From a virus, in the IMG/VR virus record IMGVR_UViG_3300034082_004166, positions 1-28,766 of that record: a stretch of 28,766 bases of DNA. One strand, written 5' to 3'. This document shows, piece by piece, positions 8,542 through 28,660 of this stretch (positions are counted from its first letter, which is position 1; each line of letters opens with the position of its first letter). A program made the translations under genes and the position numbers. The notes under the pieces were generated by a model. The model had not been told where the DNA came from. It worked only from the letters and a program-made list of their open reading frames with translations, and made no database searches.

Positions 8542-9138
8542 TTAGCTCTCGTGAAGACAGAGGAGCACCTCATCAATCGCTCGGCGGCATTCTCGCTGAA
8601 TCCCTGTGGCATCAAGTCCCGAGAGGACCGGAGGCAATTCCGACTCAAATTTGGCTCGGAGGATCGATGTCGCCTGGGCGACCAGCCCGATCCATTCGCT
8701 CTTCACCTGATGGATCGGAACGTATTCTCCCTTCTTGACTGCGATTCGCAGCTCTCGCTCCTCGACCTCAGCGAGCAACTTGCGGGCCTTGAGTGCCTCC
8801 TCATTTCCGACCGGCACACGCCCGGCATTGAGTCCGCGTAGTCGCACGAACTCCCGCCAGTCTGCCACTGGCCAGAGTCCATTGGAGAGAGCCTTGGGTG
8901 CCCCCTCCATCTTCTGCCAGTTGGTCAGCGTGCGGCGCGAAACCCCGAGAACAGCAGCGAGTTCGACGAGGGTCTTGGCGTAGGCCAGTGTCTCAGCACT
9001 GCCGGCCGCCCGGGATTCGATGCGAGCACGCTCAGCCACGGTGAGAGGTTTGCCCCCGGCCACCTTCTTGACGATGTTTTGAAAATCCGCGTCGAGGATT
9101 TTCCCAGCGATGTCAGGGGATAATTCCTTTGTCTCCAC
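8542..9138 (-). CDS. Terminase small subunit (Nu1-like)
   Basis: A 198-residue protein (Nu1 181 aa). Residues about 60-105 hold a helix-turn-helix, AAVLGVSRRTLTNWQKM, followed by a helical C-terminal part that would assemble and contact TerL. It recognises the packaging site and lies directly upstream of TerL. GTG at 9138 is preferred, 13 nt after TTGACA (9152-9157). A diverged copy of its first ~70 codons exists at 10222-10431 as part of a chimeric remnant. Confidence 0.85.
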   Translation of the reverse strand: METKELSPDIAGKILDADFQNIVKKVAGGKPLTVAERARIESRAAGSAETLAYAKTLVELAAVLGVSRRTLTNWQKMEGAPKALSNGLWPVADWREFVRLRGLNAGRVPVGNEEALKARKLLAEVEERELRIAVKKGEYVPIHQVKSEWIGLVAQATSILRAKFESELPPVLSGLDATGIQRECRRAIDEVLLCLHES

Positions 9139-9162
9139 GCCCAAGAGGGAGTGTCAATCCAG

Positions 9163-10095: not shown

Positions 10096-10431
10096 TTAGC
10101 AAAAATTTAGCGCGGAGTCAAGAATCATGGTTTGACTGCGACCCATCCGGCGAAGTTCAAGTGCCGCCAGAAGCAATCGACCGACGTGAAGCCTTCCTGA
10201 TGGAGAAGTTCTTCGTTCCAGCGTGCGCCGAGTGACGCCCATCACAGAGGCAAGCTCCACGAGTGTCTTAGCATAGGCGAGAGTCTCCACGCTACCCGCC
10301 GCACGGGATTCGATGCGAGCACGCTCAGCGACCGTGAGTGGTTTGCCTGCCGCGACTTTCTTCACGATGTTCTGAAAATCGGCGTCGAGGATTTTCCCGG
10401 CTATGTCATGCGATAATTCTTTCGGTTCCAT
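10096..10431 (-). pseudogene. Chimeric remnant: TerS N-terminus joined to methyltransferase C-terminus
   Basis: An open frame of 111 codons. The part from 10431 to about 10222 matches the first ~70 codons of the terminase small subunit gene at 8542-9138 (KELSxDIAGKILDADFQ, KPLTVAERARIESRAAGS). Just after RRTL it switches, at a shared CTGG, to DNA matching the last ~30 codons of the methyltransferase at 12210-12932. In this piece (10217-10125) the methyltransferase reading HQEGFTSVDCFWRHLNFAGW is in a different frame, so the chimera ends in unrelated residues. The start keeps a TTGACA (10445-10450) 13 nt upstream. An expressed DNA-binding fragment cannot be excluded. Confidence 0.8.
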
Positions 10432-10533: not shown

Positions 10534-10563
10534 TTGACATATCATACAAAATGTAGATTTATT
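10534..10563 (+). promoter_or_regulatory. Candidate hipBA promoter
   Basis: TTGACA at 10534-10539 is followed by an AT-rich stretch with a weak -10 candidate about 17-18 nt further on (ATTTAT, 10557-10562). It lies 44 nt before the HipB start. This is the only plus-strand TTGACA I found in the window. HipB-type repressors usually bind their own promoter. Confidence 0.4.
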
Positions 10564-10582
10564 GCTCAGAATATCAGCCATT

Positions 10583-10909
10583 ATGGGACGAGAAAATAGC
10601 ACACTACTGCCCAAGCACGAGCGTCTCCTCGTCGATTTGGGAGAGAATCTTCGATTGGCGCGGCTGCGGCGAAAGCTGAGTGCCGAACAGGTCGCAGAGC
10701 GGGCGGGCCTCAGCCGCTCGACCCTGCATCTGATGGAAAATGGATGCGCCGGTATTTCGCTGGGCAAGCTCGTGCAGGTGTTGGCCGTGCTCGGACTTGA
10801 GCAAGATCTCTCCGCAGTGGGTAGCGACGATGTTCTGGGTCGCAAGCTGGAAGACGCTCGTCTCACGGAAACTCGGCGACGCGCGCCGAAAAGAAAACTT
10901 AAGCCATGA
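10583..10909 (+). CDS. hipB: HipB-like antitoxin, XRE-family repressor
   Basis: A 108-residue protein with an XRE helix-turn-helix at about residues 14-65 (LGENLRLARLRRKLSAEQVA, then AGLSRSTLHLMENG). The C-terminus is basic. It would neutralise HipA and repress the operon. ATG at 10583 was chosen; a TTG at 10562 would add seven residues. The stop overlaps the HipA ATG (CCATGAGC). It is one of the few plus-strand genes, inserted against the direction of the phage late genes. Confidence 0.85.
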   Translation: MGRENSTLLPKHERLLVDLGENLRLARLRRKLSAEQVAERAGLSRSTLHLMENGCAGISLGKLVQVLAVLGLEQDLSAVGSDDVLGRKLEDARLTETRRRAPKRKLKP

Positions 10910-12174
10910 GCAGGGAAATTGAAGTATGGGCCGACTGGCAGGAACTCGGTGCACCGATCCTAATGGGGCATCTGCGTTCCTCACTGACCCGAGGGAAGGA
11001 GATTTTTTCCTTCTCCTACGAGGGCGAATGGCTGGCAAGTGGTGCCGCACGGCAGCTCGATCCTGACCTGCGACTCTTTGGTGGACCGCAGTATCTGAAC
11101 TCCGCGGAACGACCGAACTTTGGTCTGTTCCTAGACTCGTCTCCGGACCGATGGGGAAGGCTCCTCATGCAACGACGGGAGGCGGCCCTCGCACGCGAGG
11201 CCAATCGTCCCGCCCATCGCTTGCAGGAAACCGATTACCTACTCGGGGTGCATGATGAGCAGCGCTCTGGTGCCTTGAGATTTAAGGAGCGCGAAACGGG
11301 CGATGCCTGGCTCAACAACGAATCCTCGATGCGGACACCTCCGTGGACATCCTTGCGCGAATTGGAACAGGCAAGCTGGAAGATCCAAGACGCTTCCGCA
11401 AACGACGACCCTCATTATCTCGAATGGCTCAACCTCTTGATCGCGCCGGGTTCTTCGATCGGTGGCGCTAGACCGAAAGCCGGGGTCAGGGATCCCAATG
11501 GCGACCTTTGGATTGCGAAGTTCCCCGGACGCTCCGATGCTCGGGACATGGCCGCGTGGGAGATGCTCACCCACCAACTCGCAGTCAAAGCGGGCCTTCG
11601 TGTCGCGGAAGCCGACCTGCAACAATTCGGAAGCGGCCATCGGACCTTTATGACCCGCCGCTTCGACCGGGTGCGGGGGAGCAACGGGACGCAACGAGTC
11701 CATTTCGCCTCGGCGATGACCCTGCTCGGGCACACCGATGGAGACAATCATCATGCCGGGGCAAGCTACTTGGAGATCGTCGAGTTTCTCTGCCGCCAGG
11801 GAGCCGCAACCGTCAGCGATCTTGCGGAACTGTGGCGAAGAATCGTTTTCTCCATCGCGGTTCGAAACACCGACGATCATCTTCGCAATCACGGCTTCCT
11901 GCTCACGGATGGCGGATGGCTTCTTTCTCCTGCTTATGATCTGAATCCCGAACCCACGGGTACCGGACTGAGTCTCAATATTTCGGAAACTGACAATGCC
12001 TTGAGTTTTGATCTGGCCATGGAGGTCGCTTCCTTGTTCCGGCTCAATCATGCGGCGGCGGAAGTCATTCTGCGCGAAGTCAAGGGTGCCGTGGGAACCT
12101 GGAAAAAACAGGCAATTGATCTTGGCATCGCGCGCGCAGAGCAGGAAATCATGGCGGCGGCTTTCGAAGCCTGA
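10906..12174 (+). CDS. hipA: HipA-like serine/threonine kinase toxin
   Basis: A 422-residue HipA kinase, close to the usual ~440. Features are the N-terminal HipA domain, the Ser-containing loop APGSSIGGARPKAG (residues 180-192), the lysine in LWIAKFPG (Lys205), the catalytic IAVRNTDDHLRNHG (Asp323/324, Asn328) and the metal-binding SPAYDLNP (Asp345). All key residues are present, so it should be active. HipA kinases phosphorylate translation factors such as GltX and stop growth. With HipB it is probably an addiction or anti-phage cargo. It runs tail-to-tail with the methyltransferase, 35 bp apart. Confidence 0.92.
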   Translation: MSREIEVWADWQELGAPILMGHLRSSLTRGKEIFSFSYEGEWLASGAARQLDPDLRLFGGPQYLNSAERPNFGLFLDSSPDRWGRLLMQRREAALAREANRPAHRLQETDYLLGVHDEQRSGALRFKERETGDAWLNNESSMRTPPWTSLRELEQASWKIQDASANDDPHYLEWLNLLIAPGSSIGGARPKAGVRDPNGDLWIAKFPGRSDARDMAAWEMLTHQLAVKAGLRVAEADLQQFGSGHRTFMTRRFDRVRGSNGTQRVHFASAMTLLGHTDGDNHHAGASYLEIVEFLCRQGAATVSDLAELWRRIVFSIAVRNTDDHLRNHGFLLTDGGWLLSPAYDLNPEPTGTGLSLNISETDNALSFDLAMEVASLFRLNHAAAEVILREVKGAVGTWKKQAIDLGIARAEQEIMAAAFEA

Positions 12175-18362: not shown

Positions 18363-18395
18363 ATGGACGTGAGGTGGCACCATGGCAGATATTAA
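18363..18395 (+). CDS. Leader micro-ORF, copy 3 (MDVRWHHGRY)
   Basis: Ten codons ending TAA, two nt before the amidoligase ATG. Compared with copies 1 and 2 it keeps CATGGACGTG, an 11-nt spacer, TGGCAGAT, and then ATGACAAC as in copy 1 at the gene start. It is a diverged third member of the leader family, on the opposite strand. Confidence 0.4.
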   Translation: MDVRWHHGRY

Positions 18396-18397
18396 CC

Positions 18398-19204
18398 ATG
18401 ACAACGCCAACACTGTCCCGCCGCTTCGGAGTCGAGATCGAATTCCTCTCCACCGTCACTGTAGAACAAGTTCTCACAAGTCTCCGCTCCGCAGGCATTC
18501 AAGCCGAATATGAGGGATACACCCACCGCACAACACCCCACTGGAAAATCGTGAGCGATGGCTCCTGCGGATACGAACTGGTGTCTCCGATCCTCGAAGG
18601 CGAAGCCGGTATTGAGGAACTTCAAAAAGCCGCTACGGCACTGGAGGCCACAGGCGCACAAGTCGATAGACGCTGCGGACTTCATGTCCATTTCGACGCA
18701 CGTCAGATGAGCCTCAAAGCGATCAAAAACATCTTCAAGATGTGGCTCAAATTCGAGGACGTTCTCGATACGTTCCAGCCACTTTCCCGCCGGGGCAGCA
18801 ACAACACTTACTGCCGCACGAACCTCGATCACAACATCATCGATGCCGACAATCACCGAGTGCAATGCTCGAAACTCTTCCGCCAAATTGACCAGTGTAA
18901 GAACATGGAGGACATGAGAGCTCTCTACCCCTGCCGCTACCGCAAACTCAACATTCAATCCTACTTCCGCCATCAGACGTTGGAAGTCCGTCACCACGCC
19001 GGGACAACGAATCCTGAAAAAATCACCAACTGGGTTCGCTTAATGGCACGACTCTTCGACGCAGCGGAATCCGCCGCTACCGTTCGCAACCGCCCACAGG
19101 ATACCGGAGTCGGCATGAACCGCATGAAGTGGTTCTTCCAAGCAATCGAAGCCCGCGGGCTCACCAAATTTTACAACGCCCGCGCGAAAAAACTCGCTGC
19201 ATAA
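18398..19204 (+). CDS. Putative amidoligase
   Basis: A 268-residue protein of the COOH-NH2 ligase superfamily (putative amidoligase family). Motifs are RRFGVEIEF (8-16), SDGSCGYELVSPIL (53-66), CGLHVHFDA (93-101) and RHQTLEVRHHAGT (191-203). These give the acidic and His residues expected for an ATP-dependent ligase related to glutamine synthetase and glutamate-cysteine ligase folds. Family members are thought to join amino groups to carboxyl groups of peptides or small molecules, and are found in phage and cell-wall contexts. It heads a plus-strand trio against the surrounding operon. Confidence 0.8.
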   Translation: MTTPTLSRRFGVEIEFLSTVTVEQVLTSLRSAGIQAEYEGYTHRTTPHWKIVSDGSCGYELVSPILEGEAGIEELQKAATALEATGAQVDRRCGLHVHFDARQMSLKAIKNIFKMWLKFEDVLDTFQPLSRRGSNNTYCRTNLDHNIIDADNHRVQCSKLFRQIDQCKNMEDMRALYPCRYRKLNIQSYFRHQTLEVRHHAGTTNPEKITNWVRLMARLFDAAESAATVRNRPQDTGVGMNRMKWFFQAIEARGLTKFYNARAKKLAA

Positions 19205-20153: not shown

Positions 20154-20381
20154 TCACAGGAATTGGACACGGGTGGGGATATCCCTGCCAGCTATCAAGG
20201 GTTCAATAGATTCCTTGATGGGTTCGAATCCATTTGAACCCGTTTGAACCCCGTCCAGCATGGCGATGATGTCGGGTGTCACGTCGATGCTGGCTTGCCC
20301 ATGTTGCACAGCGATCAGCCGCGCTCCTTCGCGGAGCATGCGTGTGACCCTGTGAACTGGTGTCGTGGTGTTGAGAGGCAT
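20154..20381 (-). CDS. Small hypothetical protein
   Basis: A 75-residue protein beginning MPLNTTTPVHRVTRMLREGA. No family is recognised. Its C-terminal codons (about 20199-20250) contain GGTTCAAA-type repeats like those at 22079-22143, giving FEPIKESIEPL in the protein. The ATG was chosen just after the tRNA-like element. Confidence 0.45.
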   Translation of the reverse strand: MPLNTTTPVHRVTRMLREGARLIAVQHGQASIDVTPDIIAMLDGVQTGSNGFEPIKESIEPLIAGRDIPTRVQFL

Positions 20382-20393
20382 GGTGATCGTGAG

Positions 20394-20464
20394 TGGTTGC
20401 GGGGGCGGGACTTGAACCCGCAGGGGCGAGGGTATGAGTCTCGCTTGGAACATTCCTCCCCGCG
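20394..20464 (-). tRNA. Initiator-tRNA-like gene, anticodon CAT, compact D-arm
   Basis: On the minus strand this reads as a 71-nt cloverleaf. The acceptor is CGCGGGG / CCCCGCA with a C1-A72 mismatch, then ACCA encoded. The anticodon arm is CGAGA-CTCATAC-CCTCG (anticodon CAT at 20434-20436), the variable region CCCCT, and the T-arm GCGGG-TTCAAGT-CCCGC. The acceptor ends equal those of bacterial fMet tRNA. The D region is only 14 nt (at best a 3-bp GGA/TCC stem with a 4-nt loop, no GG), and the anticodon stem lacks the three G-C pairs typical of initiators. It starts 5 nt after the upstream gene stops. It may be a reduced tRNA, a mimic or a decayed gene. Confidence 0.6.
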
Positions 20465-20469
20465 TTTGG

Positions 20470-21084
20470 TTAGAGCGCCTCGTAGATGTCGAGGATCAGC
20501 TTGAAGTCCTTCTTGAGTCCTTCGCGACGATCATCGTCCCATTCATCGACGGGGGCCTTCTGCGTCTCACGCGCCCACCAACGGCGGATGCGGTTGAGCA
20601 AGGCGAGGTAGGTGACGTAGCCACGGTCGGCAGGGTCGCCCTGGACTTCCTCCTCGGTTGCAATTCGACCGAAGTTTATCGACTTGCGCAGACGATTCAC
20701 CCCGAGATCGTGTTTGGCTGCTTGATCGAGCCAATACTTTTGTTCTTCTGGATCTTTCAGCTTAGCCACCGTGTAGTGGTGCTTGAAGGTGAGATTTTCA
20801 TACCGGTATGAAAATTGGACCTTCCGTGCGACATAGGCGTAGTTGGCCAGTGTTTGGTATTCCAATCCTGTGCAAGCGATGGCCTCGTTGTATTTCTCGC
20901 CCCACTTGTTTTCGGCATAGTTGATCCAATCACCGATCATGAGGCCCAACGAACGCTCAGCATCTCCGAGTCTCGCGCCGATTGTTTCCCACTCTTCGAA
21001 GCTGAGGTCACCGTGGAAGTCGATGCCGCAGCGAGTGACCGTAAATTTACTTTCAAGATTTGGTAGATTGATAAGGGTGTCCAT
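20470..21084 (-). CDS. Conserved phage/plasmid DNA-associated protein (ERxxGxMIGDW family)
   Basis: A 204-residue protein with a pattern I associate with a phage/plasmid family of unproven function: SFEEWETIGARLGDAERSLG, MIGDWINYAENKWGEKYNEA, TGLEYQTLANYAYVAR, FKHHYTVAKLKDPEEQKYWL and GVNRLRKSI. The arrangement of helices and the HH...VAKL...LR order look like a ParB/HTH-type DNA-binding protein. It overlaps the upstream HTH gene by 32 nt and is followed at once by the tRNA-like gene. Confidence 0.55.
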   Translation of the reverse strand: MDTLINLPNLESKFTVTRCGIDFHGDLSFEEWETIGARLGDAERSLGLMIGDWINYAENKWGEKYNEAIACTGLEYQTLANYAYVARKVQFSYRYENLTFKHHYTVAKLKDPEEQKYWLDQAAKHDLGVNRLRKSINFGRIATEEEVQGDPADRGYVTYLALLNRIRRWWARETQKAPVDEWDDDRREGLKKDFKLILDIYEAL

Positions 21085-28299: not shown

Positions 28300-28533
28300 A
28301 GGCGCCCTAAAACTGTCCGATGATATGTCCGATAGCCCCGAAAAACTGTCCGATAGCCCGAAAAACTGTCCGATGATATATCCGATGGCTTGCGAGATAT
28401 GTCCGATGGCTTGCGAGATATGTCCGATAGCCTGCGAGATATGTCCGATGGCCTGCGAGATATGTCCGATAGCCTGCGAGATATGTCCGATAGCCTGCGA
28501 GAAATGTCCGATAGCCTGCGAGATATGTCCGAT
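28292..28533 (+). repeat. Directional array of TGTCCGAT half-sites (iterons)
   Basis: Exact copies start at 28292, 28314, 28326, 28347, 28367, 28400, 28421, 28442, 28463, 28484, 28505 and 28526, with a variant TATCCGAT at 28379. From 28379 to 28526 the spacing is exactly 21 bp, or two helical turns, and the filler (GGCTTGCGAGATA or AGCCTGCGAGATA) is also conserved. From 28292 to 28379 spacing is 22, 12, 21, 20, 12. It could be a replication origin, a centromere-like site or a cooperative operator. Confidence 0.9.
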
Positions 28534-28660
28534 GATCCGCAAAATCTTTCGCAGTTCTTAATCATCGTCTCCTCCGCTACGGCTTGATTTTTCGACGTTT
28601 GGCAATTCTTTCTTGATGACCTTCATTGATACTGTTCACTTGAACTAAATTCTCTCGCTT
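28534..28660. other. Non-coding stretch between array and right-edge ORF
   Basis: No gene or repeat is visible. It is AT-rich towards the right (TTCATTGATACTGTTCACTTGAACTAAATT, split here as TTCATTGATACTG and TTCACTTGAACTAAATT) and could hold a promoter for the plus-strand frame at 28661, but no convincing -35/-10 pair was found. Confidence 0.4.

Follow-up and report, generated by a model that had tools for sequence, protein, structure and literature searches.

An initiator-like tRNA between two phage genes

The stretch analysed here (the window) is an entire virus record of 28,766 bases; linear IMG/VR records of this type are often fragments. A 71-nt element resembling an initiator tRNA is wedged between two genes on its minus strand, with the following layout.

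20470–21084, minus strand: upstream 204-aa phage gene with a weak DUF1016_N-like match; its stop lies 5 nt ahead of the tRNA
20394–20464, minus strand: mini-D initiator-like tRNA, 71 nt, defined by sequence, fold, covariation in relatives and a match of 88.7 bits to model R1
20458–20464, minus strand: 5' acceptor strand CGCGGGG; C1 stands unpaired opposite A72, and positions 2-7 pair with the 3' acceptor strand
20447–20456, minus strand: mini D hairpin GGAATGTTCC of 3-4 bp, from the fold and from relatives such as GGGA-CGG-TCCC and GAGC-CGGA-GCTC
20426–20444, minus strand: anticodon arm GCGAG-ACTCATACC-CTCGC, with CAU in an open 9-nt loop, 31-39 (A/C) unformed and C38 in place of A38
20405–20421, minus strand: T arm GCGGG-TTCAAGT-CCCGC, from the fold
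20394–20404, minus strand: 3' acceptor strand CCCCGCA followed by A73 and the encoded CCA, from the sequence
20154–20381, minus strand: downstream 75-aa gene, whose ATG lies 12 nt past the CCA

Read from 20464 to 20394, the full element is CGCGGGG-A-GGAATGTTCC-AA-GCGAG-ACTCATACC-CTCGC-CCCT-GCGGG-TTCAAGT-CCCGC-CCCCGCA-ACCA. Folded for minimum energy, it gives a cloverleaf with four arms (-30.3 kcal/mol, z = -3.05) that was equalled by 1 of 200 shuffles, and its D hairpin spans 10-11 nt. The fold and the relatives described below place the element at 20394-20464 far above chance, on the minus strand. The sequence bears out the fMet-type acceptor with its C1-A72 mismatch, the CAT anticodon, the T-arm and the encoded ACCA that the initial annotation had listed, as well as the clean placement 5 nt past one stop and 12 nt ahead of the next ATG. 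A 99-aa ORF that starts inside the tRNA was rejected as a real start, its ATG being absent from relatives. A call by tRNA finders had been proposed as a check and was not obtained: the window element gave no tRNA call with ARAGORN, and Rfam returned nothing even at E = 1, with RF00005 also negative when run alone.

The element was compared with a bacterial tRNAfMet-CAU, the host Akkermansiaceae gene in L087. Both have C1-A72, acceptor pairs 2-71 and 3-70, CAU, A29-U41, G30-C40, the T arm and an encoded CCA, whereas the element has a D arm of about 11 nt instead of 17-18, A8 instead of U8, an open 31-39, C38 instead of A38 and a length of 71-73 nt instead of 77. The element family departs from the canonical D arm with G18-G19 and U8, having a mini hairpin and A8, and it lacks the three consecutive G-C pairs of initiators (29-41, 30-40, 31-39). 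The absence of these three stacked pairs had been noted from the outset, but the contrast with the host is smaller than it suggests: the host initiator itself carries A29-U41 and so has two of the three G-C pairs only. Likewise, the reported lack of GG in the D-loop holds for the window copy and not for most relatives, which keep GG (CGG or TGG); one G was lost in the window lineage.

The remainder of the window encodes a lambda-type portal, an S49 protease, a gpA-type terminase, an AAA/primase-like protein and a helicase. An Amidoligase_2 gene (18374-19204, plus strand) lies on the strand opposite to the early operon. In the terminase region, the first ~71 codons of a gene that adjoins the large terminase gene, likely the small terminase subunit, are duplicated with 89% identity (8542-9144 and 10096-10431, minus strand). 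The two copies flank a 243-aa gene of unknown family, and just past the second copy lies a HipB-like regulator and HipA_C toxin kinase pair (10562-12174, plus strand), set between phage genes and probably a cargo (moron) cassette. The layout looks as if a cassette had inserted with partial duplication. The right end (28354-28545) carries a 21-bp direct repeat (GATATGTCCGATRGCCTGCGA) in seven to eight copies, which are iteron-like and perhaps form an origin or an operator.

Conservation and covariation in the window family

A pattern search matched 37 viral stretches and 13 bacterial genome stretches, most of the latter from Verrucomicrobiota MAGs (Akkermansiaceae, Verrucomicrobiaceae). Four of the matches (L037, L044, L055, L065) proved not to be the element but initiators of canonical or broken form; L065, from Planctomycetales, was dropped as a broken canonical initiator that shares only its 3' part. 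Across viral contigs and Verrucomicrobiota genomes, 39 distinct versions of the element were found. It is present in 22 of the 23 contigs that encode the 204-aa neighbour, either directly after this gene or past one small inserted gene. Among 129 phage pairs in which the 204-aa gene is less than 80% identical, the element is on average 87% identical, versus 46% at fourfold sites. One-base length differences in the D-loop and in the variable region exclude a protein-coding role.

In a structural model built from 19 versions, 99.5% of the cells are paired, and the model collapses when the partners are slid. Two-sided compensatory changes, for which a search of related phages had been recommended, were found at acceptor pair 4-69 (G-C or A-U) and in both the D and the anticodon stems, and were seen over the 39 sequences as well. 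In variant L086 the T stem is also altered in a compensatory manner; the energy fold of this variant taken alone does not give the cloverleaf. Position 1:72 is C/A in 38 of the 39 variants and C/U in the remaining one. The family is invariant for CAU with U33, for G30-C40 and for A29-U41, its T-loop reads TTC(A/G)A, and CCA is usually encoded. The description as a reduced initiator-type tRNA carried by a phage is strongly supported by this conservation and covariation. A random partial match, in turn, is refuted by the conserved position and stems and by the compensatory changes.

The odd D arm, and the lack of an encoded CCA in L027, could be taken as marks of a decaying tRNA or of an attachment-site remnant, both of which had been envisaged. 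Purifying selection, covariation and wide recurrence, over dozens of contigs, refute decay for the family as a whole and leave this reading with a negligible probability. An attachment site is not supported, as the element sits mid-genome between early genes, its 5' half is kept and the host initiator genes are intact.

The anticodon arm of the family differs from that of ordinary initiators. Position 31 is occupied by A, C or T, with no G in any variant, the 31-39 pair is formed in none of the 39 variants, and position 38 always holds C or T, with no A. This leaves a canonical stem of effectively 4 bp and a loop of 9 nt, as in known 4-bp anticodon-stem tRNAs. Such stems are almost absent among bacterial tRNAfMet (0.2%; PMC13092985) but are the rule in this phage family, so that, judged from the aligned variants, the open 9-nt loop is a family trait and not noise.

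The surroundings of the element are far less constant than the element itself. It typically begins 5-8 nt past a stop and usually ends 9-15 nt ahead of an ATG, and this tight wedge would suit an RNA processing signal or a cis-regulator, in which a tRNA-like fold only cuts the early mRNA or controls the downstream gene. However, the downstream gene is unrelated in three relatives (L061, L063, L068) and has lost its start in five others (L015, L022, L043, L057, L070) while the element persists, and the upstream gene is a different one in eight (L007, L011, L016, L017, L027, L034, L059, L069). Nearly all relatives with changed neighbours have an intact element, L027 being the one without an encoded CCA. 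Neither punctuation nor cis-regulation would need the conserved CAU, C1-A72 and CCA. A role in cis for the next gene is hence improbable, and we give this explanation as a whole a low probability. The retention of the element despite the change of its neighbours argues for a trans-acting RNA freed by processing.

Reduced CAU tRNAs in other phages

We extended the search to viral contigs for CAU tRNAs with a GCGGGG or GCAGGG acceptor and a short acceptor-to-anticodon distance, leaving the D-region sequence and 1:72 free. This yielded 120 distinct sequences, including the window family; under stricter rules, 93 reduced CAU tRNAs were retained, of which 71, from diverse viral contigs, fall outside the window family, a class size that is a lower bound given the two acceptors used. 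These mini-D genes were picked by length, and their counts are not a frequency among initiators. The D-region length of CAU tRNAs is bimodal, with one group at 14-16 nt and the other at 18-22 nt.

Most D hairpins of the wider class have a 4-bp stem closed by an NGG or NGGN loop. In an alignment of 88 sequences that includes a few canonical ones, the D stem covaries with all Watson-Crick types at three of its four pairs, and the whole structure shows 401 two-sided cells versus 108 expected in shuffles; the alignment was built with model R1 and is biased towards its structure, while slid controls collapse and the D stem was unconstrained in the search. Outside the window family, A8 is found in 56 of the 71 mini-D tRNAs, and U8 in 112 of 116 canonical viral initiators. 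Position 1:72 is a mismatch or a weak pair in 69 of the 71, G-C or C-G occurring almost never. The window element shares the features of this class: short acceptor-to-anticodon spacing, a covarying D hairpin, CAU and a non-strong 1:72.

Within the same contigs, an equally short D region was found in only 1 of 164 other tRNAs, which indicates that in those contigs the reduction is largely limited to initiator-type tRNAs. This within-contig comparison replaced an anticodon-specificity control on the GCGGGG acceptor, which was uninformative: nearly all of its hits read CAU, but so do 103 of 105 canonical-length tRNAs with that acceptor.

Detection by ARAGORN differed between the groups (2 of 22 in the window family, 52 of the 71 other mini-D tRNAs and 115 of 116 canonical initiators). 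Mini-D genes also lie in tRNA arrays, at 22 loci by scan, with a large array in L133. In Limnohabitans phage DC31 (L379, 3989-4077), a mini-D CAU tRNA lies between tRNA-Pro and tRNA-Tyr in an annotated array of five tRNAs, in a gap that is blank in the record annotation, in ARAGORN and in Rfam. Single-sequence searches of named phages gave this one clear mini-D tRNA, the other hits being canonical initiators or T-arm matches. Related reduced CAU tRNAs lie in tRNA arrays of other Verrucomicrobiota genomes (L121 in G181, L122 in G037); one adjoins an RtcB-type RNA ligase and one lies near a class I aminoacyl-tRNA synthetase gene. In L150 (2383-2532), two reduced-D CAU tRNAs stand side by side, one with C-G at 1:72.

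Canonical initiators encoded by phages are known too, for example in Erythrobacter phage ZS04, whose tRNA is likewise phage-borne, with a C1-A72 mismatch, CAU and a CGCAGGG acceptor; unlike the element, it keeps the whole D arm, and ARAGORN detects it. D-arm-reduced mitochondrial tRNAs resemble the element in that their D arm is lost or replaced. They are mostly elongators served by adapted factors. The phage mini-D, by comparison, is largely restricted to initiators, forms a structured hairpin and keeps GG in most members. Searches among open-licence papers turned up no account of a D-arm-reduced phage initiator, and this type of phage initiator is apparently undescribed so far.

Host initiators and a possible role in translation initiation

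The hosts, assigned from MAGs, are Verrucomicrobiota, and the window is read as a small phage of this phylum. In nine genomes that carry the element, the usual 77-nt initiator with a complete D arm is present as well; eight of these genes are intact, and the remaining one is truncated by the end of its contig. The host genes have G-C at 31-39 and A at 38. From its co-occurrence with these genes, the element is read as an addition to the host initiator and not as a substitute for a lost gene.

This bears on tRNA-dependent lysogeny, in which a phage tRNA stands in for a host gene destroyed by integration, here the initiator gene. Such lysogeny is known for mycobacteriophages with other tRNAs (PMC10865867), and the host initiator gene does resemble an integration site for some elements. 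The intact initiators nonetheless make the explanation very improbable here, and in G009 the element and the tRNA with an extra 3' fragment are on different contigs. In G009 (L118) and G002 (L119), extra 3' fragments of the host initiator gene lie on the same contig as the intact gene, which suggests that tRNAfMet serves as an integration site for other mobile elements in bacteria of this type.

From comparative sequence evidence, we consider it fairly probable that the element is a true initiator tRNA of the phage, reduced in form and transcribed as part of the early operon. RNase P reads the acceptor plus T arm; together with 3' nucleases, it would free the element from the polycistronic early mRNA. 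MetRS, which depends mainly on the CAU anticodon (PMC9976931), would charge it through CAU/A73, formyltransferase would act through the open 1:72 end, and IF2 and the P-site would take it as an extra or substitute initiator. The charging and processing steps need the D arm little and EF-Tu delivery and A-site accommodation need it more, so that an initiator, which bypasses EF-Tu and the A-site, would be the tRNA best able to lose it. It appears that the phages come with a pared-down translation starter of their own, which probably backs up the host tRNAfMet.

Two points count against a working initiator, namely that the window D-loop is without GG and that the hosts already have normal initiators. 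In addition, anticodon-stem changes lower initiation in E. coli (PMC11497404) and 4-bp stems are as rare in bacteria as given above, so the open 31-39 could weaken P-site use. The main rival is an initiator decoy that would be charged and/or bind MetRS, formyltransferase or IF2 and initiate poorly, damping or redirecting host translation or regulating formylation. The acceptor determinants are kept while 31-39 is always open, unlike in other mini-D and canonical phage initiators, as a decoy might have it. Yet G30-C40, A29-U41 and CAU are invariant, which a decoy of acceptor-end enzymes would not need, related mini-D tRNAs lie in ordinary phage tRNA arrays, and the phage itself requires initiation. 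We regard the decoy as unlikely. That members of the mini-D class are also found within tRNA arrays of phages makes a working tRNA more likely than a decoy or mimic.

If the element is a working initiator, host enzymes that cleave tRNAfMet, for example VapC, may act poorly on it, given the changes in its body and in its anticodon loop (C38, 31-39 unpaired). Enteric VapC cuts tRNAfMet between A38 and C39 (PMC4105405), and the family is altered at 38 and 31-39, at this very site; the nuclease of these hosts may differ from the enteric enzyme. Phage tRNAs often carry anticodon-loop changes at nuclease sites, and the element shares such changes with anti-tRNase phage tRNAs, but these are ordinary tRNAs whereas the element is an initiator whose D arm is changed too (PMC10264068). 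Phages facing enteric VapC are reported to avoid tRNA-fMet in general (van den Berg 2023, PMC10264068). PIN-domain proteins are encoded by all nine element-carrying hosts, a circumstantial link to defence. By analogy with these systems, nuclease escape is a possible purpose of carrying the element, although we would not put it at an even chance. More tentatively still, phages of many hosts may share, or have repeatedly evolved, a minimal initiator with a 4-bp, NGG-loop D hairpin that works on ordinary bacterial ribosomes. The obligatorily open 9-nt loop of the window family would then shift start-codon choice or escape initiator-cutting immunity, the phage running initiation on its own tRNA.

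A full D arm is regarded as standard for all bacterial tRNAs; these observations suggest that natural initiators can do without it, and this fits the idea that the D arm serves mainly the EF-Tu and A-site steps. They also bring to light a type of phage tRNA gene that often escapes tRNA-finding software and lies within otherwise annotated arrays. The reason for which phages carry initiator tRNAs becomes testable, including whether host immunity attacks initiation.
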